From an uncultured Methanobrevibacter sp. (GTDB lineage: Archaea; Methanobacteriota; Methanobacteria; Methanobacteriales; Methanobacteriaceae): a stretch of DNA of 64,000 nt. This document shows positions 31,115 through 55,632 of this stretch, one piece after another (position 1 is the stretch's first letter; every line of letters starts with the position of its first letter). The DNA lies in contig OMVY01000002.1 of the NCBI GenBank assembly GCA_900314635.1, positions 61,881 through 125,880 of the forward strand. The letters are read 5' to 3'. A program made the position numbers and the translations under genes. The notes below the pieces were generated by a model that was given only the letters and a program-made list of their open reading frames with translations, did not search any database and was not told the DNA's origin.

Positions 31115-31387
31115 TTATAATCTAGAGTAATATTCCAATATTGTAGAAACATCTGATAAAGCTTCGTCAGTATCTCCAGCTTCAATTGCCTCTTTAATGC
31201 AATGATTGAGATGTCCTTCTGCTATGATGTGTCCAACCTTATGCAAAGCAGACTTGGAAGCATTAACCTGCATCAGAATATTCTCACAAGGAACATCCTC
31301 GTCTATCATGCGATCAATAGCATTCAACTGCCCGATAATCTTCTTCAAACGCCTGTGAAGATTTTCAGAATCCATACATTTTTTCAA
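31115..31387 (-). CDS. CsoR/RcnR-family metal-sensing repressor, copy 1
   Basis: 90 residues, all helical. Metal ligands Cys34, His59 and Cys63 (PCENILMQ; EGHLNHC) match the x-Cys-His-Cys pattern of copper sensor CsoR. The family binds G/C-tract operators as tetramers and lets go when metal binds. The start is TTG at 31387 with GTGAT three bases before it; the internal ATG at codon 5 has no ribosome site. An operator copy lies 40 bases upstream, so it is probably autoregulated. Its 5' half is nearly identical to copy 2. Confidence 0.9.
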   Translation of the reverse strand: MKKCMDSENLHRRLKKIIGQLNAIDRMIDEDVPCENILMQVNASKSALHKVGHIIAEGHLNHCIKEAIEAGDTDEALSDVSTILEYYSRL

Positions 31388-31497: not shown

Positions 31498-31583
31498 TTT
31501 AAGATGTTGACATATTAGTCGCTGCAAAAAATAGCCGAAAACATAGGGTTCCTAAAAGAGTAGAAAAATTAGACCATCTTAAA
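31498..31583. other. GC-richer segment bounded by 9-bp inverted repeats
   Basis: TTTAAGATG at 31498-31506 and CATCTTAAA at 31575-31583 are perfect inverted arms around about 68 bases that are richer in G and C (for example GTCGCTGC, ATAGCCGAAAACATAGGG) than other gaps. The right arm overlaps the stop of csoR copy 2. It could be an RNA structure, the scar of a small mobile element, or gene remnant. No coding frame was established. Confidence 0.35.
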
Positions 31584-31851
31584 ATCGTGAATAATACTCC
31601 AGAATAGTTGAAAGATCTGATAAAGCATCATCACTATCCTTTTCGTCAATAGCTTCCTTAACGCAGTTATTAAGATGGCCTTCAACTATGATGTGTCCCA
31701 CCTTATGCAAAGCAGACTTGGAAGCATTGATTTGCATCAGAATATTCTCACAAGGAACATCCTCGTCAATCATGCGATCAATAGCATTCAACTGCCCGAT
31801 AATCTTCTTCAAACGCCTGTGAAGATTTTCAGAATCCATACATTTTTTCAA
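31579..31851 (-). CDS. CsoR/RcnR-family metal-sensing repressor, copy 2
   Basis: 90 residues with the same ligand set Cys34, His59, Cys63 (EGHLNNC). Residues 1-40 are the same as copy 1 except for one change near the end, while the last third diverges (VKEAIDEKDSDDALSDLSTI). The TTG start at 31851 has GGGGA seven bases upstream, confirming TTG for both copies. No operator of the CsoR type lies upstream, so this copy may be expressed constantly or sense under other control. Could also be a formaldehyde or nickel sensor relative, but the Cys-His-Cys set favours copper. Confidence 0.88.
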   Translation of the reverse strand: MKKCMDSENLHRRLKKIIGQLNAIDRMIDEDVPCENILMQINASKSALHKVGHIIVEGHLNNCVKEAIDEKDSDDALSDLSTILEYYSRF

Positions 31852-33749: not shown

Positions 33750-35597
33750 TTATTCATCAAATAAAGTTGTTTGCTGGGATTTTTTAGAAGACCCTGACAT
33801 TTCTTGCTCTAATTTTTCCTCTTCTTCGAGTGCATCTTCAACTTCTTGTTCCTTGGATTTCTTGCCTTTTTTGGATTTCTTCTTAGGAGCTTCATCATCC
33901 TTAAATGCGTCATCCAAATCTGTTTCATAAACCCTGTTGCTACGTGCAGAATGCTCGGAATCTACTTCATGACCGAATTCATCAAGCTCTTCAAGGAAGT
34001 AGTCAATGTAATCCTCTTCTTCTTCATCATCCTCTATTTTCTCGCCTAAAAGTTCTGCCAATGCTCTTCTGGTTACCTTGGCAAGAACCGGCTTGTAATC
34101 AGGAACTTCTGTCTCAGCAAGATTTGCAGCCTCTTCAATAATAACTGGAACATAATCTTCAAAGATTTTAGATCTCATTGCCTTTTCCTTTTCAGCTCTT
34201 TTGGATCTTAAGTATTTTTGAAGCTTACGTGCGATTTTCATGGTAGCCTGTCTTACTTCATGAACAATTTCAGGTTCAGGAGCAATACTCTGCTTTCCTG
34301 TTGAAAGGTAAGGAATCTGAGTGGATACAATGTTTACAAATAGAGTAATAGGGGTGTTATCGAAATCCCTTAATCCATATCTTCTCCAGTCAATAGATTT
34401 TAAAGCTTCAGTAATAGCACAGGACCCCTGGTCGAAAGTCAAAGGAACCCTGTTTGCAAATCTTAATATTTCAGATTTTCTCTGTTCGTTTACAATTCTT
34501 CCTGCATCACCGCCATAAGCAATTCCTGCTTCAACAATAAATGCCACACCACCTTTATATGTGATTGGCTTTCTTGTAATGGTAGTGATGAACTCAGGTT
34601 TCAAAATCAATTTCATACCCTTTTCAATCTGTTCTTCACCAATAGGTATGAGTCCGTCGGTTGGAGGAGCCATGAACTTCATCTTGTCAAATGCTTCGAC
34701 AATAGCCTCAGCTTCTTCCCATTTCATGCTTTTCGGACGTTTTTTCATGTCAAGGCCTGTGATTTCAGCAAGTTCATTGATTTTCTTGCTGGACATTCTA
34801 GCCAGTGAACTAGTCAGCATGCTTTTGAAGTTTCTTTTATCAGTTGTCTTAGCCATTGTAATAATGTCGTCTGCAGTTACACCCTTTGGATGCGGCAGAA
34901 CTTCCTTAGGGAGAACAGGAACAATTTCCGCAGCTCTTTTAAAGATATACTGGTGTCCGCTAGGGTCTCTAAATGTGATCTTCGCATGAGGATTAGCAAT
35001 CATTGTTCTGCGTATGTATTCAAATGCTCCTTGCTCTGCTAAAGTGTAGGAAACCTCTTTAAAGTAAAGTTTTATGCATACTCCTGTGGTTTCAGGCTGG
35101 AAATATTCCTTGGATATCAAATCACCGACATTGTTTTTAACATCCATTTTGAATTTCATTTTGACTCCTTTAAGCTCGCCATGGTCCATGTAACTGGAAA
35201 TAACATGGGTGGCCTCACCAGTAGTCATTTGGGATAAAAGCACACAACCACTGCATCCAAGACCCTGTTGTCCTCTGGACTGGATGTTTCTGAATTTGGA
35301 ACCTGCAAACATCTGACAGTATACTTTCATTACGAAATCTTCAGGAATTCCAGGACCGTTATCAGTGTGAGTAAGCACATAATGGTCTTTGCCGAGTCTT
35401 TTCAAGTCGATTTTGATTTCAGGCAGTATTCCTGCTTCTTCGGCAGCATCAAAACTGTTTGTAATCAATTCGTGGAAAACAATGGTTAAAGATCTGATTT
35501 TACCTGAAAAACCCAGCATCTGTTTATTTTTTCTAAAAAACTCTGATGGAGTTAACTCATTAAAGTTTTCAAAAAGTTCATTAGCTTGTTGAGACAA
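33750..35597 (-). CDS. top6B: DNA topoisomerase VI subunit B
   Basis: 615 residues. GHKL ATPase motifs: [14 protein letters not shown] at 43-56, [10 protein letters not shown] from 79, and GQQGLGCSG from 109. The transducer domain follows. The last 80 residues form a charged Lys/Glu tail ([20 protein letters not shown]) beyond the usual fold. It drives ATP-gated closure of topoisomerase VI. The start codon is TTG at 35597 with GGAGG six bases upstream; there is no ATG alternative. First of the two-gene unit with top6A. Confidence 0.97.
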
Positions 35598-44674: not shown

Positions 44675-44950
44675 TATTACACCATAAATTTTATATTTCA
44701 AATAAATAGTTTTAATATTAATTAATAATATAATATAATTAGTTTGTCTTATTTAATATATTTTTACAGAAATTTAAATTTTCATATTAAAAAACTATCA
44801 TGATTTCAAAAAAGAAAAAATAATTTTATCATAAAATTTCCATATGCAAAAACCAATGCAATACTTTAAAAAAAGACAAAAATAATATTATAAAATTCAT
44901 ATTAAAAAGATTTCAAAATAACAAAACAATAGCTGAAAAAAGTGTTTAAA

Positions 44951-46687
44951 ATGTATAAAAATAATAAAATACTGGTTGTAATACCTGCAAGAGGAGGTTC
45001 CAAGGGAATTCCGCGCAAAAACATAAGATTGCTTGGAGGAAAGCCTCTTATTGCACATACAATAGAAATAACAAAAGCTTCCGAATATGTTGACGAGCTT
45101 GTTGTGACAACAGACGACAATGAAATAGCATTCGTTGCCGGAAAATTCGGAGCAAAAACCATAAAACGTGACGGCAAGCTTGCTGAAGATTCAATTCCTC
45201 TTGACCCTGTGATTTATGATGCGACAATCAAGCAGGAAGAGAAGGAAGGGGAAAAATATGATGTGGTAATCACAGTTCAGCCAACATCCCCCCTGCTTAA
45301 AACAAAAACTCTGGATTTGGCTATTGAAAAATTATTGGACATCGAAGAGGATAATGACGGGAATGAAATATCCTACGACACCATCATAAGCGTTGTTGAT
45401 GACAGACACTTAAGTTGGGGATGGGATGAGGAAAACAATAAGTATTATCCCCTTTACAAAGCCAGATTAAATAGGCAATACCTTCCAAAATCATATAAGG
45501 AAACTGGAAGCATTTTCGCAAGCAAAAGAAAATTCATATGCGAAAATTCAAGATTGGGGGATAATATAGGACTTATCGAAGTCTCCAAGCAGGAAAGCAT
45601 TGACATAGACAACTATGAGGACTGGTGGGTTGCAGAGAGAATCCTGAAGAAAAAGAAGGTCCTTATCAAAACCGATGCTTCCCATGACATAGGAACCGGC
45701 CATGTCTACCGCTCACTATCAATAGCTTCAAAACTTATAAACCATGAAGTGATATTTCTGCTGGATGAGGCCAAGCCTCTTGGAATTGAAATCGTAAAAA
45801 ACAACAATTATCCTTATATCACCCACAACACCCATCAAGCTGAAAGCGAAGAAGCAAATCAGGAAGCGAAGGATGAAGTGGTTGAAAAAATCGAAGCCTA
45901 CGGCCCGGATATTGTAATCAATGACATTTTGAATACCAAATCAAAATATACCAAGGCCTTGAGGGACAGAGGTTACTTCATAGTCAATTTTGAAGACCTT
46001 GGAGGCGGAATCAAGTACGCCCATCTCATCTTTGATGCATTGTATGAACATAAGATACCTCTTCAAAACCTTTATTCAGGCCATAATTTCTATATCCTGA
46101 AGGATGAATTCTATTACCAGTCTCCTAAGGAGATAACCGAAGATGTAAACAGGATTCTCCTAACATTCGGAGGAAGCGACCCCAACAACTTTACAGAGAA
46201 GGTTTTAGAATCCATTTTGAAAAGCAGTTATGAAAATGAGATAGAAATCATCCTGGGACTCGGATATTCTAATAAAAAAGAAATACAGGAAAAATATAAG
46301 GACAATGATAGAATTACAATATATGAAAATGTTAAAAACATGAGCGAGCATATGCACAGTGCTGATTTGATTTTCACATCTGCAGGACGAACAATGTATG
46401 AAATCGCATCTCTTGGAGTTCCATGTGTCTGCCTATGCCAGAATGAAAGGGAATTGTCCCACATTTTCGGCAATGTTGAAAACGGATTCATAAACCTTGG
46501 ATTAGGGGTTAATATAACTGAAGAGCAAATCCTGGAAACTTTGGAGTCATTATTGGACAATTATGAGCTCAGATGTGAAATGAGCAGAAGAATGAAGTCC
46601 ATAGACTTGAAACACGGCTTTGAAAACATTGCCAGACTTATCAAGAAAGGATATAAGGAATGGCAGATAGATAAAGCCGGAAAATGA
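44951..46687 (+). CDS. NeuA-PseG fusion: CMP-nonulosonate synthetase plus UDP-sugar hydrolase-like domain
   Basis: 578 residues from ATG 44951 (MYKNNKILVVIPARGG), with AAGTG nearby; a GTG at 44942 is the alternative. Residues 1-230 are a cytidylyltransferase of the NeuA type (IPARGGSKGIPRKNIRLLGG; TVQPTSPLLKT). From about 231 on, TDASHDIGTGHVYRSLSIA carries the catalytic His pattern of PseG, and LLTFGGSDPNNFT and FTSAGRTMYEIASLG continue that GT-B fold. PseG removes UDP from 2,4-diacetamido sugars in pseudaminate synthesis. The fusion points to a pseudaminic or legionaminic acid rather than plain sialic acid. Confidence 0.88.
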   Translation: MYKNNKILVVIPARGGSKGIPRKNIRLLGGKPLIAHTIEITKASEYVDELVVTTDDNEIAFVAGKFGAKTIKRDGKLAEDSIPLDPVIYDATIKQEEKEGEKYDVVITVQPTSPLLKTKTLDLAIEKLLDIEEDNDGNEISYDTIISVVDDRHLSWGWDEENNKYYPLYKARLNRQYLPKSYKETGSIFASKRKFICENSRLGDNIGLIEVSKQESIDIDNYEDWWVAERILKKKKVLIKTDASHDIGTGHVYRSLSIASKLINHEVIFLLDEAKPLGIEIVKNNNYPYITHNTHQAESEEANQEAKDEVVEKIEAYGPDIVINDILNTKSKYTKALRDRGYFIVNFEDLGGGIKYAHLIFDALYEHKIPLQNLYSGHNFYILKDEFYYQSPKEITEDVNRILLTFGGSDPNNFTEKVLESILKSSYENEIEIILGLGYSNKKEIQEKYKDNDRITIYENVKNMSEHMHSADLIFTSAGRTMYEIASLGVPCVCLCQNERELSHIFGNVENGFINLGLGVNITEEQILETLESLLDNYELRCEMSRRMKSIDLKHGFENIARLIKKGYKEWQIDKAGK

Positions 46688-46708
46688 TTAAATATTAAAA
46701 TCAGAATA

Positions 46709-46763
46709 ATTATTAAATTAAGCGGGAATTTATTATTAAATTAAGTTGGAATTTATTATTAAA
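46709..46763. repeat. 23-bp tandem repeat upstream of neuB
   Basis: ATTATTAAATTAAGCGGGAA plus TTT at 46709-46731 is repeated with two changes at 46732-46754, and a third copy begins at 46755. It lies directly before the neuB ribosome site. Confidence 0.6.
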
Positions 46764-46781
46764 AAAAATAACGGTGAGATA

Positions 46782-47852
46782 ATGAGCATATTCAATGAAG
46801 AACCTTTTTTAATAGCTGAAATTGGCGTAAACTATTATGATATTGCAAAAAAAGAAGGCATTTCCAATATGGAAGCTGCCAAATTAATGGTTAAAGAGGC
46901 TAAGGATGCAGGATGCGATGCAGTGAAATTCCAATCATACAAAGCAGACACAATAGCTTCTAAAAACTCTCCTGCATACTGGGATACAAATGAAGAACCT
47001 ACAACCTCCCAATACGAATTATTCAAGAAATTCGACTCCTTTGGAGAAGAGGAATACAAGGAAATAGCAGACTACTGTAAGGAAATCGGAATCCTATTTC
47101 TGTCAACACCTTTTGATTTCGCATCAATAGATTATCTTGACAAATTCATGGACATCTACAAGATATCCTCATCAGATTTGTCAAACATTCCATTTATCCA
47201 GAAAATAGCTCAAAAGGGAAAGCATATAATCATTTCCACAGGCGCTTCCACCCTAGATGAGATTAAACTGGCTATCGACACAATAGAAAATGAAAATGAT
47301 GATTATTTAAACGGCCAAGCGGAAATAGGAATCATGCACTGCGTTTTGTCTTATCCAACCGACAACAGCGATGCAAATCTCTTAATGATTAAAAACCTGA
47401 AGGATCTCTATCCAAACTATGACATAGGATATTCAGACCATACTAAACCTGATGAAAACATGCTCATTCTAACTACTGCTTATCTTTATGGAGCAACTAT
47501 TCTTGAAAAGCATTACACACTCGACAAGACCTTGACTGGAAACGACCATTATCATGCAATGGACCCTGAAGACATCAGGAAATTCAAGGAAAACATCAAG
47601 CTTATTAAAACAATCAACGGCCAGTATGACAAGGTTCCTCTTCCATGCGAAGCTGAATCAAGAAAACAGGCAAGACGCTCAATCATTGCAAAAGTCGATA
47701 TCAAAAAAGGAGAAGCAATCTCAAAGGACATGCTTACCTATAAAAGGCCTGGAACAGGAATCTCTCCAAGCGAAATAGCTAATGTAATTGGCAAAATAGC
47801 TAAAGAGGACATTAAAGAAGATGATTTATTGTCTTATGACGTTTTAGAATAA
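46782..47852 (+). CDS. neuB: NeuB-type nonulosonate synthase with SAF domain
   Basis: 356 residues from ATG 46782 (MSIFNEEPFLIAEIGVNYY), with GGTGAG three bases upstream. The TIM-barrel synthase shows CDAVKFQSYKADT, IYKISSSDLSNIPFI, GYSDHT and EKHYTLDKTLTGNDHYHAMD. The C-terminal antifreeze-like SAF domain is RRSIIAKVDIKKGEAI and RPGTGISPSEI. It condenses phosphoenolpyruvate with an N-acyl hexosamine to a nine-carbon sugar acid, which NeuA then activates. Acceptor type (ManNAc, Pse or Leg precursor) is not visible. Its 3' end is copied twice downstream. Confidence 0.92.
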   Translation: MSIFNEEPFLIAEIGVNYYDIAKKEGISNMEAAKLMVKEAKDAGCDAVKFQSYKADTIASKNSPAYWDTNEEPTTSQYELFKKFDSFGEEEYKEIADYCKEIGILFLSTPFDFASIDYLDKFMDIYKISSSDLSNIPFIQKIAQKGKHIIISTGASTLDEIKLAIDTIENENDDYLNGQAEIGIMHCVLSYPTDNSDANLLMIKNLKDLYPNYDIGYSDHTKPDENMLILTTAYLYGATILEKHYTLDKTLTGNDHYHAMDPEDIRKFKENIKLIKTINGQYDKVPLPCEAESRKQARRSIIAKVDIKKGEAISKDMLTYKRPGTGISPSEIANVIGKIAKEDIKEDDLLSYDVLE

Positions 47853-47923
47853 ATTAAGATGATTTATTGTCTTATGACGTTAGAATAAATTCATGCAATT
47901 TAAGATGATTTATTGTCTTATGA
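47818..47923. repeat. neuB 3' end present three times
   Basis: AAGATGATTTATTGTCTTAT plus GA occurs identically at 47818-47839 (inside the last neuB codons), 47856-47877 and 47902-47923. The second copy also carries ACGTTAGAATAAATT like the gene end. Only the first is within the coding frame. Confidence 0.75.
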
Positions 47924-47994
47924 AGTTTACATGCAAAATCAAAAACCCTATTTGTTTTTTACTATTCACTCATTAAAAAAATAAGAATGATACC

Positions 47995-49440
47995 ATGACA
48001 TTTACTGTAAAGGAAATCTGCGAGAGGATCTGGGAACTGGAAGAGAGATATGAACTCAACCACATGGAAATCCAAGGAACTTATCCATGGCTGATTATAA
48101 GGATGTATGTCTATTACGAGATAACAAGAAAGACCCAGGTATTCGAATCATCCCAGCAGGCCAGCCTTTCCTTATTTGATAAAGTCAAATCATTCACCCC
48201 ATTCATTAAAAACAGCCTCCTGAATAATCCTTTTAGCGGAGGCAAATGTGATGTTCTCATATTCGACCATCCGAGAAAAGTGATTTTCCAAAATGAATAT
48301 AAGGACATCTACAGTTATTTTCTGCCTCAAACTCTCAAAGAAAATGGAAAGAGTTTTGAAATAGTTGAATCTCCTTATTTAAACAAGCATTTCACTAGCA
48401 AAAGTTATCAGAAGAAAAACAATGTGAGATTTAATGATAGAATTCTTCTTGGATCATTTATCAACAAAAGCCGAAATCGTGGCAAGGTTCCATTTACAGA
48501 AGATGAGAAAAGCAGGATAGATCTTTTGAAAAAGGAGCTTGAAACTGCATTTTCCATTGAAATCGACTTGTTTAGAATAATCGAGGACCATATCCTCAAC
48601 TTCAAATATGATTACGAGAAATATCTTGAACTTTTAGAGAAGAAACAGCCAAAACAGGTATTTCTTGTTGTTGCCTATGAAAACAAGGCATTGGTTAGCG
48701 CCTGCCATGAAAAGAACATCGAAGTCATAGAACTTCAGCATGGAACCATCAGTCCATACCATTTAGGATACAGTTATCCAAAAGAAACATGTAAAAAAGA
48801 TGGAAAGTATAAGGAAATTGAATATTTCCCCGATAAAATACTAAGTTTCGGTGATTACTGGCAGAATGCTTGTCCGTTTCCAATAGAAAAAGATAACATA
48901 ATTTCCATGGGCTATCCATACTTTAATGAAAGCTCATTGGAATTCATGAAAATAGATAAGAATCACAATCAGATCATATTCATATCCCAGGGAGTTATCG
49001 GCAAGTATCTGTCTAAATTCGCATATGAAACAGCACGAAATCTGGAGGATTACAAAATCATATACAAACTCCACCCCGGCGAATATGCAACATGGAGAGA
49101 GAACTACGAATCTTTGGTAAAAGCTGAAAAAATGGATAATTTTAAAGTCATTGACAAAAGCGAGCCTCCATTGTATGAATTATTTGCAAAAAGCGAATAT
49201 CAAGTTGGAGCATTTTCAACAGCTATTTACGAAGGCTTGAGCTTCAACTGCAAAACATTCATCATAGATGCTCCGGGAATCGAGTATTTAGACGCCCTTT
49301 TTGATAAAGGCATTGTATTGAAAGTGGATGACAGCGATGATATGATAGAAAAGATGAAAGATTCCAATTTAGCGGAGTATGACAAGAATTATATCTTCAA
49401 ACCTTATGATAAAAGCGTTTTTGATAAGATTTTAAAATAA
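47995..49440 (+). CDS. Putative surface-glycan glycosyltransferase (GT-B type)
   Basis: 481 residues, no membrane helix. Two motifs stand out: IELQHGTISPYHLGYSYP near 250 and YKLHPGEYATWRENY near 360. Such HG-T and HPGE motifs occur in polysialyl- and capsule-type transferases (CDP-glycerol/TagF and GT52-like groups). A fold change to YEGLSFNCKTFIIDAPG near the C-terminus fits the GT-B nucleotide site. Placed right after neuA-pseG and neuB, it may transfer the CMP-activated sugar. The exact activity is a guess. Its last codons are duplicated downstream. Confidence 0.65.
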   Translation: MTFTVKEICERIWELEERYELNHMEIQGTYPWLIIRMYVYYEITRKTQVFESSQQASLSLFDKVKSFTPFIKNSLLNNPFSGGKCDVLIFDHPRKVIFQNEYKDIYSYFLPQTLKENGKSFEIVESPYLNKHFTSKSYQKKNNVRFNDRILLGSFINKSRNRGKVPFTEDEKSRIDLLKKELETAFSIEIDLFRIIEDHILNFKYDYEKYLELLEKKQPKQVFLVVAYENKALVSACHEKNIEVIELQHGTISPYHLGYSYPKETCKKDGKYKEIEYFPDKILSFGDYWQNACPFPIEKDNIISMGYPYFNESSLEFMKIDKNHNQIIFISQGVIGKYLSKFAYETARNLEDYKIIYKLHPGEYATWRENYESLVKAEKMDNFKVIDKSEPPLYELFAKSEYQVGAFSTAIYEGLSFNCKTFIIDAPGIEYLDALFDKGIVLKVDDSDDMIEKMKDSNLAEYDKNYIFKPYDKSVFDKILK

Positions 49441-49483
49441 AAAAATACTAAGCGCAATTGATAAGAATTTAAAATAAAAAAAT
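49412..49483. repeat. 3' end of the glycosyltransferase-like gene duplicated
   Basis: TTGATAAGATTTTAAAATAA plus AAAAAT at 49421-49446, covering the last codons and stop, recurs at 49458-49483 with one base change. The preceding AGCG is also shared, giving a period of 37 bases. Confidence 0.65.
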
Positions 49484-49615
49484 TATAAAAATAATTTTAT
49501 TCTAAAATTGAAAATATTTAGAGAATCATTGAGAATACTACAACAATTAAATTAATAAATAATTAAGAATATAAAAAATTTTAGAAAAATAATTCAAATA
49601 ACTAAGTGTGATCAA

Positions 49616-51058
49616 ATGGCAGATTATATCAAATTCATACAAAGAATAGGTCTCGTTGGAATTACAAATATTCTGATCTCACTTAGCAGCCTTATTTTCA
49701 TACCAGTAATTACAAAATCATTTACAACTGCAGAATACGGCATGTGGGCACAAGTAAACACAACAATAGCCCTTGTGCCGAACATAGCAAATCTGGGACT
49801 TCCATTTACAATGGTGAGGTTCCTTTCAGCCGAGCATGACAAGGCAAGAATCAGGGAATCATTCTATCCAATGATGAGCGTGACATTGATTTCAACACTC
49901 ATCATCTGCGGACTATTCATCCTGTTTGGAGGACAGATAGCAGATGCGCTTTTTAATGGAAGCATGCAGGTTCTCTATATTACTACCGCAATATCCTTTT
50001 TTGCCTGTTTAAACCTGATGCTTATCTCATACTTCAGAACCTTCCAGCAAATGAAGAGATACTCACTTTTCCTCGTATTGCAAAGCTATATCGGGGTTTT
50101 TGTAAGCATATACCTGACCTATGCGGGATATAATATAGAAACAGTGGTCCTCGGACTTTTAACCGGATATGTTTCAGTATTCATAATGATGGCATTCATC
50201 ATTGTCAGATACCTCGGCTTCGGACCGGTTAAATGGAGCAATCTCAAAGAGCAGCTGGATTTTGCCATACCTACCATTCCAAGCAATGTATCATCATGGG
50301 TTGTTGATTCAAGCGACAAGTATGTGATTGGAATTATAGCAGGATCTGTTGCAGTAGGATGCTACTCACCAGGATATGCTCTAGGAAGCATTCTTTTAAT
50401 GTTTCTCTCACCATTTGCAGTTCTCCTTCCTGCTGTTCTGCCGGAGCATTATGAAAAAGGAGAAATAGACCAGGTTGACACTTATCTTGGCTATTCGATG
50501 AAATACTACCTTCTTTTAACTGTTCCTGCAGCAGTTGGAATGAGCGTGCTTTCAAAACCTCTGCTGTATGTCATAACAACTCCTGAAATAGCACTTGGAG
50601 GTTATATGATTACTCCATTTGTCTGCCTGGGGGCATTGTTTATGGGAATGTATGGAATAACCAACAACATACTCATTCTTGAGAAGAATACCAGGGTACT
50701 TGGAAAGCTCTGGATAATAGTGGCTGTTGCAAACATAGCCCTTAACATATTGATGGTTCCTTATCTCGGAATTTTAGGAGCCGCTCTTGCCACATTGTTC
50801 TGTTATGTCCTGGCATTTGTCGTGACAGCTCATGAAAGCAAGAAGACAATGAGACTGCCGTTTAACATGAAAGAAGTTTTAAAAATATCTGTTTCATCAA
50901 TAATCATGGGTGCAGTGGTTTATATGATGAATGCAAATGATATCCTAAGCATTTTAATAGCTGTAGCAGTTGGAGTGATTGTTTACTTTGCCTGCATATT
51001 CCTATTTAAGGGAATTAGTAAAAAAGAAATAGAGATATTTAAAGGGTTGATCCAATAA
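49616..51058 (+). CDS. Wzx-like polysaccharide/oligosaccharide flippase
   Basis: 480 residues with about 12-14 membrane helices. The opening LVGITNILISLSSLIFIPVI and the middle PTIPSNVSSWVVDSSDKYVI are typical of the MOP-superfamily flippases. It should move lipid-linked glycan units across the membrane. GTGAT lies three bases before the ATG. It closes the nonulosonate unit on the plus strand, 175 bases after the glycosyltransferase-like gene. Confidence 0.9.
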   Translation: MADYIKFIQRIGLVGITNILISLSSLIFIPVITKSFTTAEYGMWAQVNTTIALVPNIANLGLPFTMVRFLSAEHDKARIRESFYPMMSVTLISTLIICGLFILFGGQIADALFNGSMQVLYITTAISFFACLNLMLISYFRTFQQMKRYSLFLVLQSYIGVFVSIYLTYAGYNIETVVLGLLTGYVSVFIMMAFIIVRYLGFGPVKWSNLKEQLDFAIPTIPSNVSSWVVDSSDKYVIGIIAGSVAVGCYSPGYALGSILLMFLSPFAVLLPAVLPEHYEKGEIDQVDTYLGYSMKYYLLLTVPAAVGMSVLSKPLLYVITTPEIALGGYMITPFVCLGALFMGMYGITNNILILEKNTRVLGKLWIIVAVANIALNILMVPYLGILGAALATLFCYVLAFVVTAHESKKTMRLPFNMKEVLKISVSSIIMGAVVYMMNANDILSILIAVAVGVIVYFACIFLFKGISKKEIEIFKGLIQ

Positions 51059-51178
51059 TTTATCTCGATAAAAAGATTGCACTAGTAACTGCTTTCAAGC
51101 TTATAGAACTTTTAAGATTTAATTTGAAAAAAATATCCATAGATTTAAATTTAAAAAAAATAGAATCAATAGGCGGAA

Positions 51179-51685
51179 CTAATGAAATCTGCCTTCTTTT
51201 TTTAGCTTTTCATAATGTTCAGCATTTCTGTACTTGAATACCTTAGCAGGATGGCCTCCTGCAATTCCATACTTCGGAATCTCTCCGACAACCACAGAGC
51301 CTGCTTGAATAATGGCTCCTTCGCCAATATGAGCTCCTGGCAGTATTATAACACGATTTCCAAGCCATACATTGTCTTCAATGACAATATCCTTAGATAT
51401 GACAGTTGAATCATAAGGAACAGCCTCCCCCTCGAAGTTATGACTGTCTGTAATCATCATGCATTCTATTCCAGAGTGGAAATTGTCTCCAATAATTACC
51501 TGAGCGCTGCCTTGAATCTTCATGCCATTGAAATTCACATTATCTCCCAAAACAGTGCCGGGGCTTACATAAGAATAATTATTAACAGTCAAATCCCTTC
51601 CCACGGATTTAGCTGTTCTTTTTACTCTGAATGTATAATAAGATCGCTTTATGCCTTTAAAAAAATTAAAAATCTTGGAAATCAT
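51179..51685 (-). CDS. Hexapeptide-repeat acyltransferase
   Basis: 168 residues. A left-handed beta-helix is shown by repeats such as VSPGTVLGDNVNFNGMKIQG and VIEDNVWLGNRVIILPGAHI, then EGAIIQAGSVVVGEIPKYGI and AGGHPAKVFKYRN. This is the CatB/maltose-acetyltransferase-like group. It probably acetylates a surface sugar, given the neighbours. GGTG five bases before the ATG. It converges on the flippase gene. Confidence 0.88.
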   Translation of the reverse strand: MISKIFNFFKGIKRSYYTFRVKRTAKSVGRDLTVNNYSYVSPGTVLGDNVNFNGMKIQGSAQVIIGDNFHSGIECMMITDSHNFEGEAVPYDSTVISKDIVIEDNVWLGNRVIILPGAHIGEGAIIQAGSVVVGEIPKYGIAGGHPAKVFKYRNAEHYEKLKKEGRFH

Positions 51686-51751: not shown

Positions 51752-53065
51752 CTAACCGGAACAGTTAGCTGAATAGTGAGATAACAGCAATGCTATTTTT
51801 TCAATGGTCTGCTCGTCAAGTCTTCTTTGACCGTAGATTATTTTATGGAACAATTCATCCATGAACAAGTCCTCATTAGTTAAAATAACATTTAAAATAG
51901 CCAAATCATTATTAATAAAACCAAGAAGAGGCTCTATGTAGATTCCACTCATTCCATTTCTATCAAGGAAAATAGCAAGGTCTTCATTCAATTCCAGAGC
52001 TTTGCGTTTAACTTTGCTGTTATGGACAAAATGAATCTCCTCATTGCCGAATTGGAACCTTGTCTGATGGTCATCATAACCGTCTTGAAGTTCCAAAGTA
52101 TTCTTCTTATCAATGTAATCCTGAATGGAAGCTGAATCATTTACCATGCTGTCGGTTTCATTATCAGATTTTATCTTATTCTTGTATTCAGCAGGGTCAT
52201 ATCTTTTTGATATGATAGTGAATATACCTGTAGGACCTACAACTACATGATTGATAGCATCCTTAGATCCAGGCGGCTGAACTCCATAGAATACATAGAA
52301 AATCGGAGGAAGAGTCAATAATTTCTCACGTATGATTCTTCCACGGTTCACATAGCTCTTATAGCTGTATCTCAGATAAAGACCAATTATAAGCAGCAGA
52401 ATACCGACTGCAACAACAGCCAGAATATAAATTAATGAATTGATTGTAAGATAGTAAGCAAGTCCGACAATTGTAAGGAACAAACCTGCAATAATCAGTA
52501 TGTCTCCTGAAGCGGATTTTTTAGGCTCGTAGTTTCTATTTGGCATAGCCATTGTCTGAACCATCTCAGGACTTACCAGACTTTTGGAATCATCGTTTTT
52601 GAGATTTTCTCCTTTCTTGATTAAATTACGGATGGAACGATTGGAGAATTGACCCTCCAAGCCATTCAGGTATTCTTCTTTAAGAATATCCATCAGAGCA
52701 TTGTAATAATTTAATCTTGCAACCTTGTATGCTTCGTATTCTTCTGTGCTGTCAAAGACAAGTTGATTCTTGCCTTTTTCATATTTTTCTTTATCTTCCT
52801 TGGACAAGGTTTTTCTAGTTAAGGTTTGAACAGGAGCAGAGCCTTCAGGCATGTTTGAAACATCCACAAGATCTGATTCATCATCAACAACCTGAGGATT
52901 GTCATTGAAGCTATTGAATTGGAAACCCGCACTCACATTAGGAGAAGTGCGCTCGCGCCTCCTGTTTTCAGCATGGATAGGAATAATCTCATCTATGCCT
53001 GCAAAATTATCGTCTGCTATTTGATCATGGGCTGAAAAGTCATCCACATAATATCCCTCATCCAT
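51752..53065 (-). CDS. IIPIHAE-motif membrane protein, C-terminal part of a frameshifted gene
   Basis: 437 residues as an independent frame, but the frame is open upstream without stop into the 30-bp repeats and joins the reading of the next ORF if a 5-nt duplication at about 53264 is removed. Features: IDEIIPIHAENRRRE near the start, a helical region (YEAYKVARLNYYNALMDILK), two membrane helices near 191-230, then a NERD-like nuclease-related segment (FYVFYGVQPPGSKDAINHVV, VVGPTGIFTIISKRYDP). No ribosome site is evident before the ATG at 53065, so on its own this part may not be translated. Function unknown. Confidence 0.7.
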   Translation of the reverse strand: MDEGYYVDDFSAHDQIADDNFAGIDEIIPIHAENRRRERTSPNVSAGFQFNSFNDNPQVVDDESDLVDVSNMPEGSAPVQTLTRKTLSKEDKEKYEKGKNQLVFDSTEEYEAYKVARLNYYNALMDILKEEYLNGLEGQFSNRSIRNLIKKGENLKNDDSKSLVSPEMVQTMAMPNRNYEPKKSASGDILIIAGLFLTIVGLAYYLTINSLIYILAVVAVGILLLIIGLYLRYSYKSYVNRGRIIREKLLTLPPIFYVFYGVQPPGSKDAINHVVVGPTGIFTIISKRYDPAEYKNKIKSDNETDSMVNDSASIQDYIDKKNTLELQDGYDDHQTRFQFGNEEIHFVHNSKVKRKALELNEDLAIFLDRNGMSGIYIEPLLGFINNDLAILNVILTNEDLFMDELFHKIIYGQRRLDEQTIEKIALLLSHYSANCSG

Positions 53066-53133: not shown

Positions 53134-53946
53134 CTATATAGGAATCCCCATTATCAAAGTCATCAATATATGAATACTCATCAGGAACATCTTCAACATA
53201 TGAATACTCATCAGGAACATCTTCAACATATGAATACTCATCAGGAACATCTTCAACATATGAATAGAATACTCATCAGGAACATCTTCAACATATGAAT
53301 ACTCATCAGGAACGTCTTCAATATGTGGATCTTCTCGGTAGGTATCCATATCATATGAGGATTCTGCATTGTCTTCTGCATGAATAGGAATTATTTCATC
53401 AAGACCTGATTCAACAGGAGCTGCCTCATCAACATAAGAAAAATCATCCACCAAATCAGACCCTTCAGCATGAACAGGAATTATATCATCATCAGAACCA
53501 GAATCATACTCCACATATGACTCATCGGCGTGAATCGGAATTATATCCTCATCGCTATCTTCAAAATAGCTTTCCATGGGAACTTCTTCCACATCTTCTG
53601 CTTGATAGCCGTTATCATATGCAATCTCTTCAGATTCCCTTATAACTTGGGTATCATCAGTTACATAATCCAGAGGACCTCCGCAACTTGTACATTCGAA
53701 TTCGCTAACGTCATCCTCGGCGTCAAGCTGATATTTCAAACCGCAGTCTTTGCAAAAAACGAGTACAGAGTTAGGATCTATTTCATAAGTATCATAATCA
53801 TAACCATAGTCTGATTCATGATCATCTGGAAAACTTTCAACTTCCTCCAGGATTCCAGCACAAACAGAACATTCAAATGCATTGATATCATCAGCATCAT
53901 CTAATTGATATTTCGCACCACAGTTCTGACACATTACTACTTTCAT
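53134..53946 (-). CDS. IIPIHAE-motif zinc-ribbon protein, N-terminal part of a frameshifted gene
   Basis: 270 residues as annotated, but the last 40 or so (IHMLKMFLMSIHMLKMFL) are the repeat read out of frame. Two zinc ribbons open the protein: CQNCGAKYQLDDADD with CSVC, and CKDCGLKYQLDAEDD with CTSC. An acidic region follows with DEDIIPIHADES, DDDIIPVHAEGS and LDEIIPIHAEDN. Then come ten-residue repeats DVPDEYSYVE. Joined to the downstream ORF it would give about 729 residues. Presumably an inner-membrane-associated scaffold; role unknown. Confidence 0.72.
   Translation of the reverse strand: MKVVMCQNCGAKYQLDDADDINAFECSVCAGILEEVESFPDDHESDYGYDYDTYEIDPNSVLVFCKDCGLKYQLDAEDDVSEFECTSCGGPLDYVTDDTQVIRESEEIAYDNGYQAEDVEEVPMESYFEDSDEDIIPIHADESYVEYDSGSDDDIIPVHAEGSDLVDDFSYVDEAAPVESGLDEIIPIHAEDNAESSYDMDTYREDPHIEDVPDEYSYVEDVPDEYSIHMLKMFLMSIHMLKMFLMSIHMLKMFLMSIHILMTLIMGIPI
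53158..53330. repeat. 30-bp coding tandem repeat with a 5-nt duplication
   Basis: About four and a half units with minus-strand sense GATGTTCCTGATGAGTATTC, then ATATGTTGAA, encode DVPDEYSYVE. The unit near 53250-53280 contains an extra TATTC (plus strand GAATAGAATACTC instead of GAATACTC), which shifts the frame. Confidence 0.85.
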
Positions 53947-54462: not shown

Positions 54463-55632
54463 TTATATGATGCTTTCATAAATATTGAGAATCTGTTCAT
54501 TGATCATATCCCAGTTATACTTTTCTTGAATTAACCTTCTGCCGTTCATGCCAAATTTCTTTGATAATTCCTCATCAAATAAGACCTCAGCCATTGCATC
54601 CTTCAAGGACATCTTGTCATCATCGCAGGCAAGCCCCACAGAACCATCCACCCAGTCATGAATATGATTGTTTTTAGTAAGAACAAGAGGTTTTCCACAG
54701 GCCATCGCCTCAAGGCCACTTGTTGTAAAAGATTCATACTTTGAAGGCATTACAAACAAGTCGCAGTCAACCAAAGCTTCCTGCTTCTCACTTTTGTACA
54801 ATGGGCCGGTTACAATCACTTTATCAGATAGGTCGCATTCTGCAATTCTCAGATTAAGGGCATCCATGTATCCATCATCAGGACCCACAATAGCTAATTT
54901 AACATCAGACTCGGAATCAGCCAATTCTTTAAAAGCATCGATTAATAAATCAAGACCCTTTATTTCATGAACCCTGCCTATGAAGATTATAAGCTTGTCA
55001 TCTTTGGATATATTGAATTTTTCTCTAAATATTCCCTCTTCCGGCAAATCTGAGTATTCTTCAATGTTTATTCCAAGAGGAACTATTTCAATCCTATCCT
55101 CTTCAACACCCATTTTCAAGTATTGCTCCTTTTCAACTTCGGTTAAAGCAAAGACCTTGGAGGCTCCATGAAGTATCTTGAAGCCGAAAACCTTATCAAA
55201 AATATTCTTCAATCCTTCCTTCTGGAAAAAAGGCAGAACTGAACCATGAGCCTGAACAACATATGGAATGCCGTATCTTCGTGCAAAATAGCATGCTATT
55301 ATCGAAAGAGTCTGCCTGTGCTCATGAACATGGACGACATCGAAGTCCCTTATCTGATTTTTTATTCTAAAAATAGCTCCAATAGGAGTATCAAGCATTG
55401 TAGCAAGCTTGAATCTGTTTGAAATGTTCTTGAAGTAATCAACTTTGATGCCGTCAATATCGACATCATATCGGCTCTCCTCAAACTTCAAGCGTTCCTT
55501 GCATGCATCGCTGCTTATGACTTTTACAGAATTGTCTCTTGCCTGCATCCTTGCAATTTGATAACTTGCATTGACTACGCCTCCAGCAGACAGACAAGGA
55601 TAAAAGAAATGAGCCACATGTAATATTTTCAT
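54463..55632 (-). CDS. GT4-family glycosyltransferase
   Basis: 389 residues. Start MKILHVAHFFYPCLSAGGVV is the GT-B N-terminal domain, and FIGRVHEIKGLDLLIDAF followed by MPSKYESFTTSGLEAMACGK is the donor-site E-x7-E region of GT4. No membrane helix. GGGGA five bases before the ATG. It lies opposite to the flippase group and next to a GT39-like gene, so it likely builds surface or lipid-linked glycans. Donor and acceptor are unknown. Confidence 0.9.
   Translation of the reverse strand: MKILHVAHFFYPCLSAGGVVNASYQIARMQARDNSVKVISSDACKERLKFEESRYDVDIDGIKVDYFKNISNRFKLATMLDTPIGAIFRIKNQIRDFDVVHVHEHRQTLSIIACYFARRYGIPYVVQAHGSVLPFFQKEGLKNIFDKVFGFKILHGASKVFALTEVEKEQYLKMGVEEDRIEIVPLGINIEEYSDLPEEGIFREKFNISKDDKLIIFIGRVHEIKGLDLLIDAFKELADSESDVKLAIVGPDDGYMDALNLRIAECDLSDKVIVTGPLYKSEKQEALVDCDLFVMPSKYESFTTSGLEAMACGKPLVLTKNNHIHDWVDGSVGLACDDDKMSLKDAMAEVLFDEELSKKFGMNGRRLIQEKYNWDMINEQILNIYESII

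Follow-up and report, generated by a model that had tools for sequence, protein, structure and literature searches.

A probable slippage mutation in a coding minisatellite splits a predicted membrane-protein gene found across Methanobrevibacter

A gene for a predicted membrane protein, present throughout the genus Methanobrevibacter, has probably been put out of frame in one uncultured member by a real and recent 5-nt slippage mutation, which would turn the full-length protein off. The gene lies in a window of 64,000 nucleotides, the whole stretch of DNA analysed here (G000:C22:61881-125880), from a genome of 2.29 Mb that is assembled in 36 contigs and is 96.8% complete. Counted as evidence for the slippage mutation are the sister units of the repeat that holds the break, relatives that carry the gene in a single frame, a control in which 46 of 47 window genes are unbroken, variation in linker length, and +1-frame products in databases. 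Counted against it is the consideration that a genus-wide gene might be expected to resist loss.

The split gene and its repeat array

The two frames of the gene were read separately, with the insert left in place and the halves not joined. On the minus strand, the N-part frame is open from 53946 to a stop at 53134-53136 (ORF 53134-53946) and encodes 270 amino acids, the first 226 of which are 100% identical to the intact database protein P0001 and the last 44 of which are out of frame. It comprises two zinc ribbons, an acidic linker, and the out-of-frame tail (53137-53268, minus strand), in which the repeats past the duplication are read as MLKMFLMSIH. The ribbons, at 53860-53937 (residues 4-29) and 53671-53760 (about residues 63-92), both score below Pfam cut-offs (24.9 bits against 30.3 for PF13717 in the first, and a sub-threshold HypA-type match in the second); their paired CxxC motifs were read directly. 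On the same strand, the C-part frame stays open for 506 codons (53272 to 51752), and its first ATG, at 53065, would give a protein of 437 aa. It encodes two hydrophobic, putatively membrane-spanning helices (52319-52513; C-part residues 185-207 and 211-249), the helices being taken from a model and the hydrophobicity judged by eye, as well as a NERD-like core motif, NHVVVGPTGIFTIISK (52205-52252, C-part residues 272-287), with its presumed catalytic acids replaced. The preliminary description of this DNA had proposed two intact frames, with zinc ribbons upstream and two membrane helices and a NERD-like segment downstream, and each of these features was recovered.

The frames, which overlap by ~135 nt, meet in an array of 5.1 units of a 30-nt coding repeat (53163-53321, minus strand; TRF score 259), for which TRF returned rows of 30 nt and 65 nt (30+35). 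In the assembled sequence, one of the five DVPDEYSYVE units carries a perfect, frame-breaking 5-nt tandem duplication (53262-53271, minus strand; GAATA twice as read on the plus strand). The pattern GA[CT]GTTCCTGATGAGTATTC occurs five times on the minus strand, with starts at 53316, 53286, 53251, 53221, and 53191; these are spaced 30, 35, 30, and 30 nt apart, the duplicated unit being 35 nt long instead of 30, and all five units read DVPDEYS. The sequence GAATAGAATACTC (plus strand, 53262) is found once in the window, and GAATACTC five times, every one within the array. Tandem duplications of 5 nt are not rare as such, with 142 that are not homopolymers in the 64 kb, and this one is considered an insertion because the four sister units lack it, which confirms the duplication first described in a single unit.

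Relatives and assembly controls

When the C-part was searched in 99 genomes, it was matched in 58, and in 49 of the 59 that belong to the same family. The genus is represented by 19 genomes, 18 of which match; the one without a match, G007, is 62% complete. Apart from the window genome, 17 of 18 genus genomes have the gene and 16 of the copies are spanned, the copy in G018 (L009) having been left out because it is cut by a contig end. Fifteen of these 16 are single-frame. With the window included, ribbons and C-part share one frame in 15 of the 17 spanned genus copies, the exceptions being the window itself and L016 of genome G006. The protein database has 203 relatives of the C-part, 120 of which were listed; in 113 of those 120, one chain carries the C-part together with four or more CxxC motifs within its first 150 residues, and three of the other seven keep two or three CxxC motifs. 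Named close relatives of the protein are from Methanobrevibacter. The closest intact proteins among the matches listed (P0001, P0002, and P0004-P0007) each form one chain, of 680-709 aa, and the C-part of the window is 99% identical to close intact proteins.

Judged by these comparisons of sequence, the halves in the window are one split gene and not two. The preliminary description had raised the question of whether all relatives carry two genes with their own starts; they carry one. Two separate genes were rejected on this single-frame arrangement and on the start signals, as AGGGAT precedes the ATG at the true start, whereas no such stretch was seen by eye before the ATG at 53065. It is also very unlikely that the halves of the split gene are now translated separately as two working proteins, the C-part by re-initiation at 53065. 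Both frames are intact, and a close strain has a C-only protein, P0003, of equal length, but the internal ATG has no ribosome-site-like stretch and stands ~70 nt beyond the upstream stop, and no other spanned genus copy is split once the error-rich G006 is set aside. Restoration of the full-length protein by programmed frameshifting during translation, for which the overlap of the frames might speak, is extremely improbable, given that intact relatives run through the linker in a single frame, so that there is no conserved site, and that inspection by eye showed no slippery heptamer. As in a pseudogene, orthologues are intact elsewhere and the gene is broken in the window, but decay after the break is missing; the event is likely recent because neither half shows stops or further breaks.

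As a control for assembly noise, 120 kb from genomes G012 and G009 were taken and the ORFs compared with the window. Matches were obtained for 92 of 116 reference ORFs (both strands), 87 of which were covered over at least 70% in one frame; three matched in more than one frame (two of them the split gene, the third at the window edge and treated as an antisense shadow), and two were only partial. Removal of matches below 38% identity and of antisense shadows left 47 sense intervals. Among these window genes with a colinear relative, 46 of 47 are single-frame and only the membrane-protein gene is split, and for this reason general assembly noise in the window genome is unlikely. An assembly or sequencing error in the array, in an organism whose own gene is single-frame, is distinctly improbable as well. 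The array presents about 160 nt of near-identical units, and another assembly of the genus, that of G006, has many breaks; set against this are the 46 unbroken genes of the window, the nature of the change, which is not a homopolymer error, and the expectation that joining of reads at multiple-of-three repeats would keep the frame.

Five control queries, all of them ORFs of the window genome (four from the window and one from contig C33), served to test the other genomes and not the window genome. Three of these five proteins are broken in G006, including one on the contig of L016; the fourth is whole, and the first was matched only as a 65-residue piece and was not judged. The G006 assembly (L016, L064) has many frame breaks in unrelated genes, and its breaks deserve little trust. 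The L016 break may be an assembly fault and is given little weight because that assembly is error-rich; no relaxed selection was seen in the L016 C-part, where dN/dS is 0.05-0.08 against close relatives and 0.05 among those relatives. In other genomes, the second control is split in G004 and the fifth in G012, and stops fall inside control matches in G003 (first control) and G014 (third and fifth). For the third control, many genomes show stops close to where the match ends. At this control (window positions 33750-35597), most genus homologues stop at about 596 codons and the 615-aa protein of the window seems longer-ended.

A hypervariable linker and out-of-frame products

The linker between ribbons and C-part is a hypervariable coding minisatellite. 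Tandem periods among the genus linkers listed are 9, 15, 30, 36, 39, 42, 54, 57, 60, 69, and 72 nt, in addition to the window's own 65, and no tandem repeat was returned for the linker of L005. Proteins longer than 500 aa were grouped at 98% identity over their last 300 residues by single linkage. The largest group holds 69 proteins of 19 lengths (567-669 aa), and the group closest to the window holds six proteins of four lengths (680-709 aa). In the second group, eight of nine proteins range from 565 to 615 aa in steps that are multiples of 5 aa, while the ninth, P0068, has 509 aa and no ribbons and is 100% identical to the 615-aa P0088 over 506 residues. Both length and frame of the gene thus differ among close relatives, which answers the call in the preliminary description for a comparison of unit-number and frame variants and supports its suggestion of a slippage-prone coding tract. 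Coding minisatellites of strain-variable length are similar in their in-frame gain and loss of units and their disordered-looking acidic linker, and the present locus differs from them in also giving out-of-frame products.

Slippage or mispairing between repeat copies would mostly give in-frame unit changes, because the units are multiples of three, and an occasional imprecise event would give an out-of-frame allele, as in the window. From such an allele, translation would yield the N-part as a fragment of two ribbons that ends in a foreign tail, with little or no C-part.

Two N-part searches (20 proteins, then 16 of which 6 were new) gave 26 short proteins, and the frame of each tail was called from the last 13 residues against 15 intact reference genes, with shuffled-tail controls. 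Five of the 26 (P0134, P0135, P0137, P0138, and P0143) end at linker repeats in the +1 frame of intact relatives; another 12 finish in frame, and 9 are unassigned. Longer tails also match the +1 frame, over 24/24 residues in P0137 and 49/50 in P0138. Intact counterparts by N-part identity are L006 for P0135 (99.3%) and P0137 (97.8%), L010 for P0138 (100%), P0020 for P0143 (99.2%), and L014 for P0134 (93.7%). P0134 is the product of L016 in the error-rich G006, and the other four are known as database proteins only. All five share the +1 frame with the window, in part through detection bias, because the third frame of the window units (frame +2) contains stops and the frame of very short tails is not assignable. 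The C-only protein P0003, of 437 aa like the C-part of the window and from the same internal ATG, suggests a second split allele in the window's group. It belongs to a close strain, differs from the window at several residues, and is represented by 14 members and 26 contigs (up to 158.7 kb); its N partner was not found in the N-part search of the protein database.

The preliminary description had suggested phase variation or a fresh mutation, and the fresh mutation fits better. Under phase variation, the linker would be a contingency site at which reversible out-of-frame slippage silences and restores the membrane protein in a fraction of the cells. We consider this unlikely, although the break does fall inside a tandem repeat, the 30-nt array, and several differing out-of-frame products have near-identical intact counterparts. 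Out-of-frame forms among close relatives amount to 5 of the 26 short proteins and the window, four of the five being known as protein only and the fifth coming from an error-rich assembly. The strong length variation, the glycan-synthesis genes nearby, and the lack of decay in either half would also suit a contingency site, but linker periods are multiples of three among the linkers listed, except for the window's 65-nt row, so that unit changes keep the frame and do not toggle it. The breaks, moreover, are of different kinds and at different positions, no allele was seen to revert to frame, ribbons and C-part stay in one chain in 113 of the 120 listed relatives, and the protein is not known as surface-exposed.

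Contingency genes subject to slipped-strand mispairing, as presented in the available text of PMC3711429 and PMC2831843, are alike in having a coding tandem repeat at the break and perhaps in on/off alleles among close relatives. They use short repeats or homopolymers in those texts, whereas the linker consists of long units of multiples of three whose number does not set the frame, and its host is archaeal. The GeneTack criteria for phase variation, in the available text of PMC3711429, are a repeat at the site, at least five frame-shifted genes, and a manual check of function; the locus has the repeat, and reaches at least five genes only at the protein level, with the window and L016 counted. 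Homopolymer tracts, another kind of tract than the linker, are the subject of the available text of PMC2831843, with 18 archaeal genomes included. Among the papers listed by literature searches on Methanobrevibacter phase variation, archaeal slippage, or the NERD-like protein, none deals with the locus, and none describes on/off variation driven by slippage in Methanobrevibacter. A contingency locus of new build in an archaeon, in which frequent slippage of a long-unit minisatellite would mostly retune the length of an acidic tether but also leave methanogen populations with OFF variants of a membrane pseudo-nuclease encoded near surface-glycan genes, is a speculative reading and a rather doubtful one.

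The protein and its genomic setting

The presumed catalytic residues of NERD domains are D and E-x-K. For NERD (PF08378), the window gene scores 15.4 bits and the genus 15.4-19.5, below the cut-off of 22.1, yet proteins of the same order that are matched by the C-part reach 72.6-90.7 bits. Six NERD relatives from the same order read DH[IV]V[VLI]GPTG..; D and E are present in 6/6 and E-x-K in 5/6. The NERD proteins of that order (L034-L040) share with the window gene the sequence of ribbon-like CxxC segment, hydrophobic segment, and NERD core; the family of the window gene differs from them in its long repeat linker and sub-cut-off score and in having N for D in 40/40 and L, I, or V for E in 40/40. 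Residue and profile evidence favours describing the product as a NERD-derived protein predicted to be non-catalytic and membrane-bound. In a fold search, the model of the C-part was weak (mean pLDDT 57.5) and Foldseek returned 0 PDB matches at E 0.001 or better, and the fold is therefore not used as evidence. SmdA of Staphylococcus aureus, in the available text of PMC9040797, is a membrane-anchored, NERD-like protein that lacks several conserved NERD residues and has a role in cell division; the likeness is that of a membrane NERD-like domain missing several conserved residues, and SmdA differs in having one helix and 302 aa. A similar cell-division role for the methanogen protein would be a guess by analogy. 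To our knowledge, SmdA has no zinc ribbons or repeats.

The split gene is flanked by a hexapeptide acyltransferase (51179-51685, minus strand; Pfam Hexapep) and a glycosyltransferase (54463-55632, minus strand; Pfam Glycos_transf_1), and other genes of the window match cytidylyltransferase, NeuB, flippase, glycosyltransferases, and acyltransferase. A surface-glycan link of the gene is possible. Window positions 44942-51685, which encode a cytidylyltransferase/glycosyltransferase fusion, NeuB, a flippase, and an acyltransferase, are likely a nonulosonic-acid surface-glycan region. Elsewhere in the window, two adjacent 90-aa ORFs (31115-31387 and 31579-31851) each cover almost the full profile of a metal-sensitive repressor family and are likely a tandem duplicate. 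A plasmid or viral origin was rejected, with no plasmid match and no C-part relative among viral contigs. A second broken gene in the window genome was likewise dismissed, as the 68% DNA match on contig C33 (L002) proved to be an unbroken ORF of 817 aa that contains acidic repeats. In G012 and G006, the homologue of this ORF (L002:674-3127), which has an acidic repeat tail in the window genome, is divided over two frames.

Gene callers will list the split gene as two proteins, and the length of its linker offers a ready strain marker. Even if the slippage mutation in the window is a mere accident, the allele still shows that a conserved gene can break. A genus-wide NERD-like domain without the presumed catalytic acids provides a natural test of the role of membrane NERD-like proteins in archaea.
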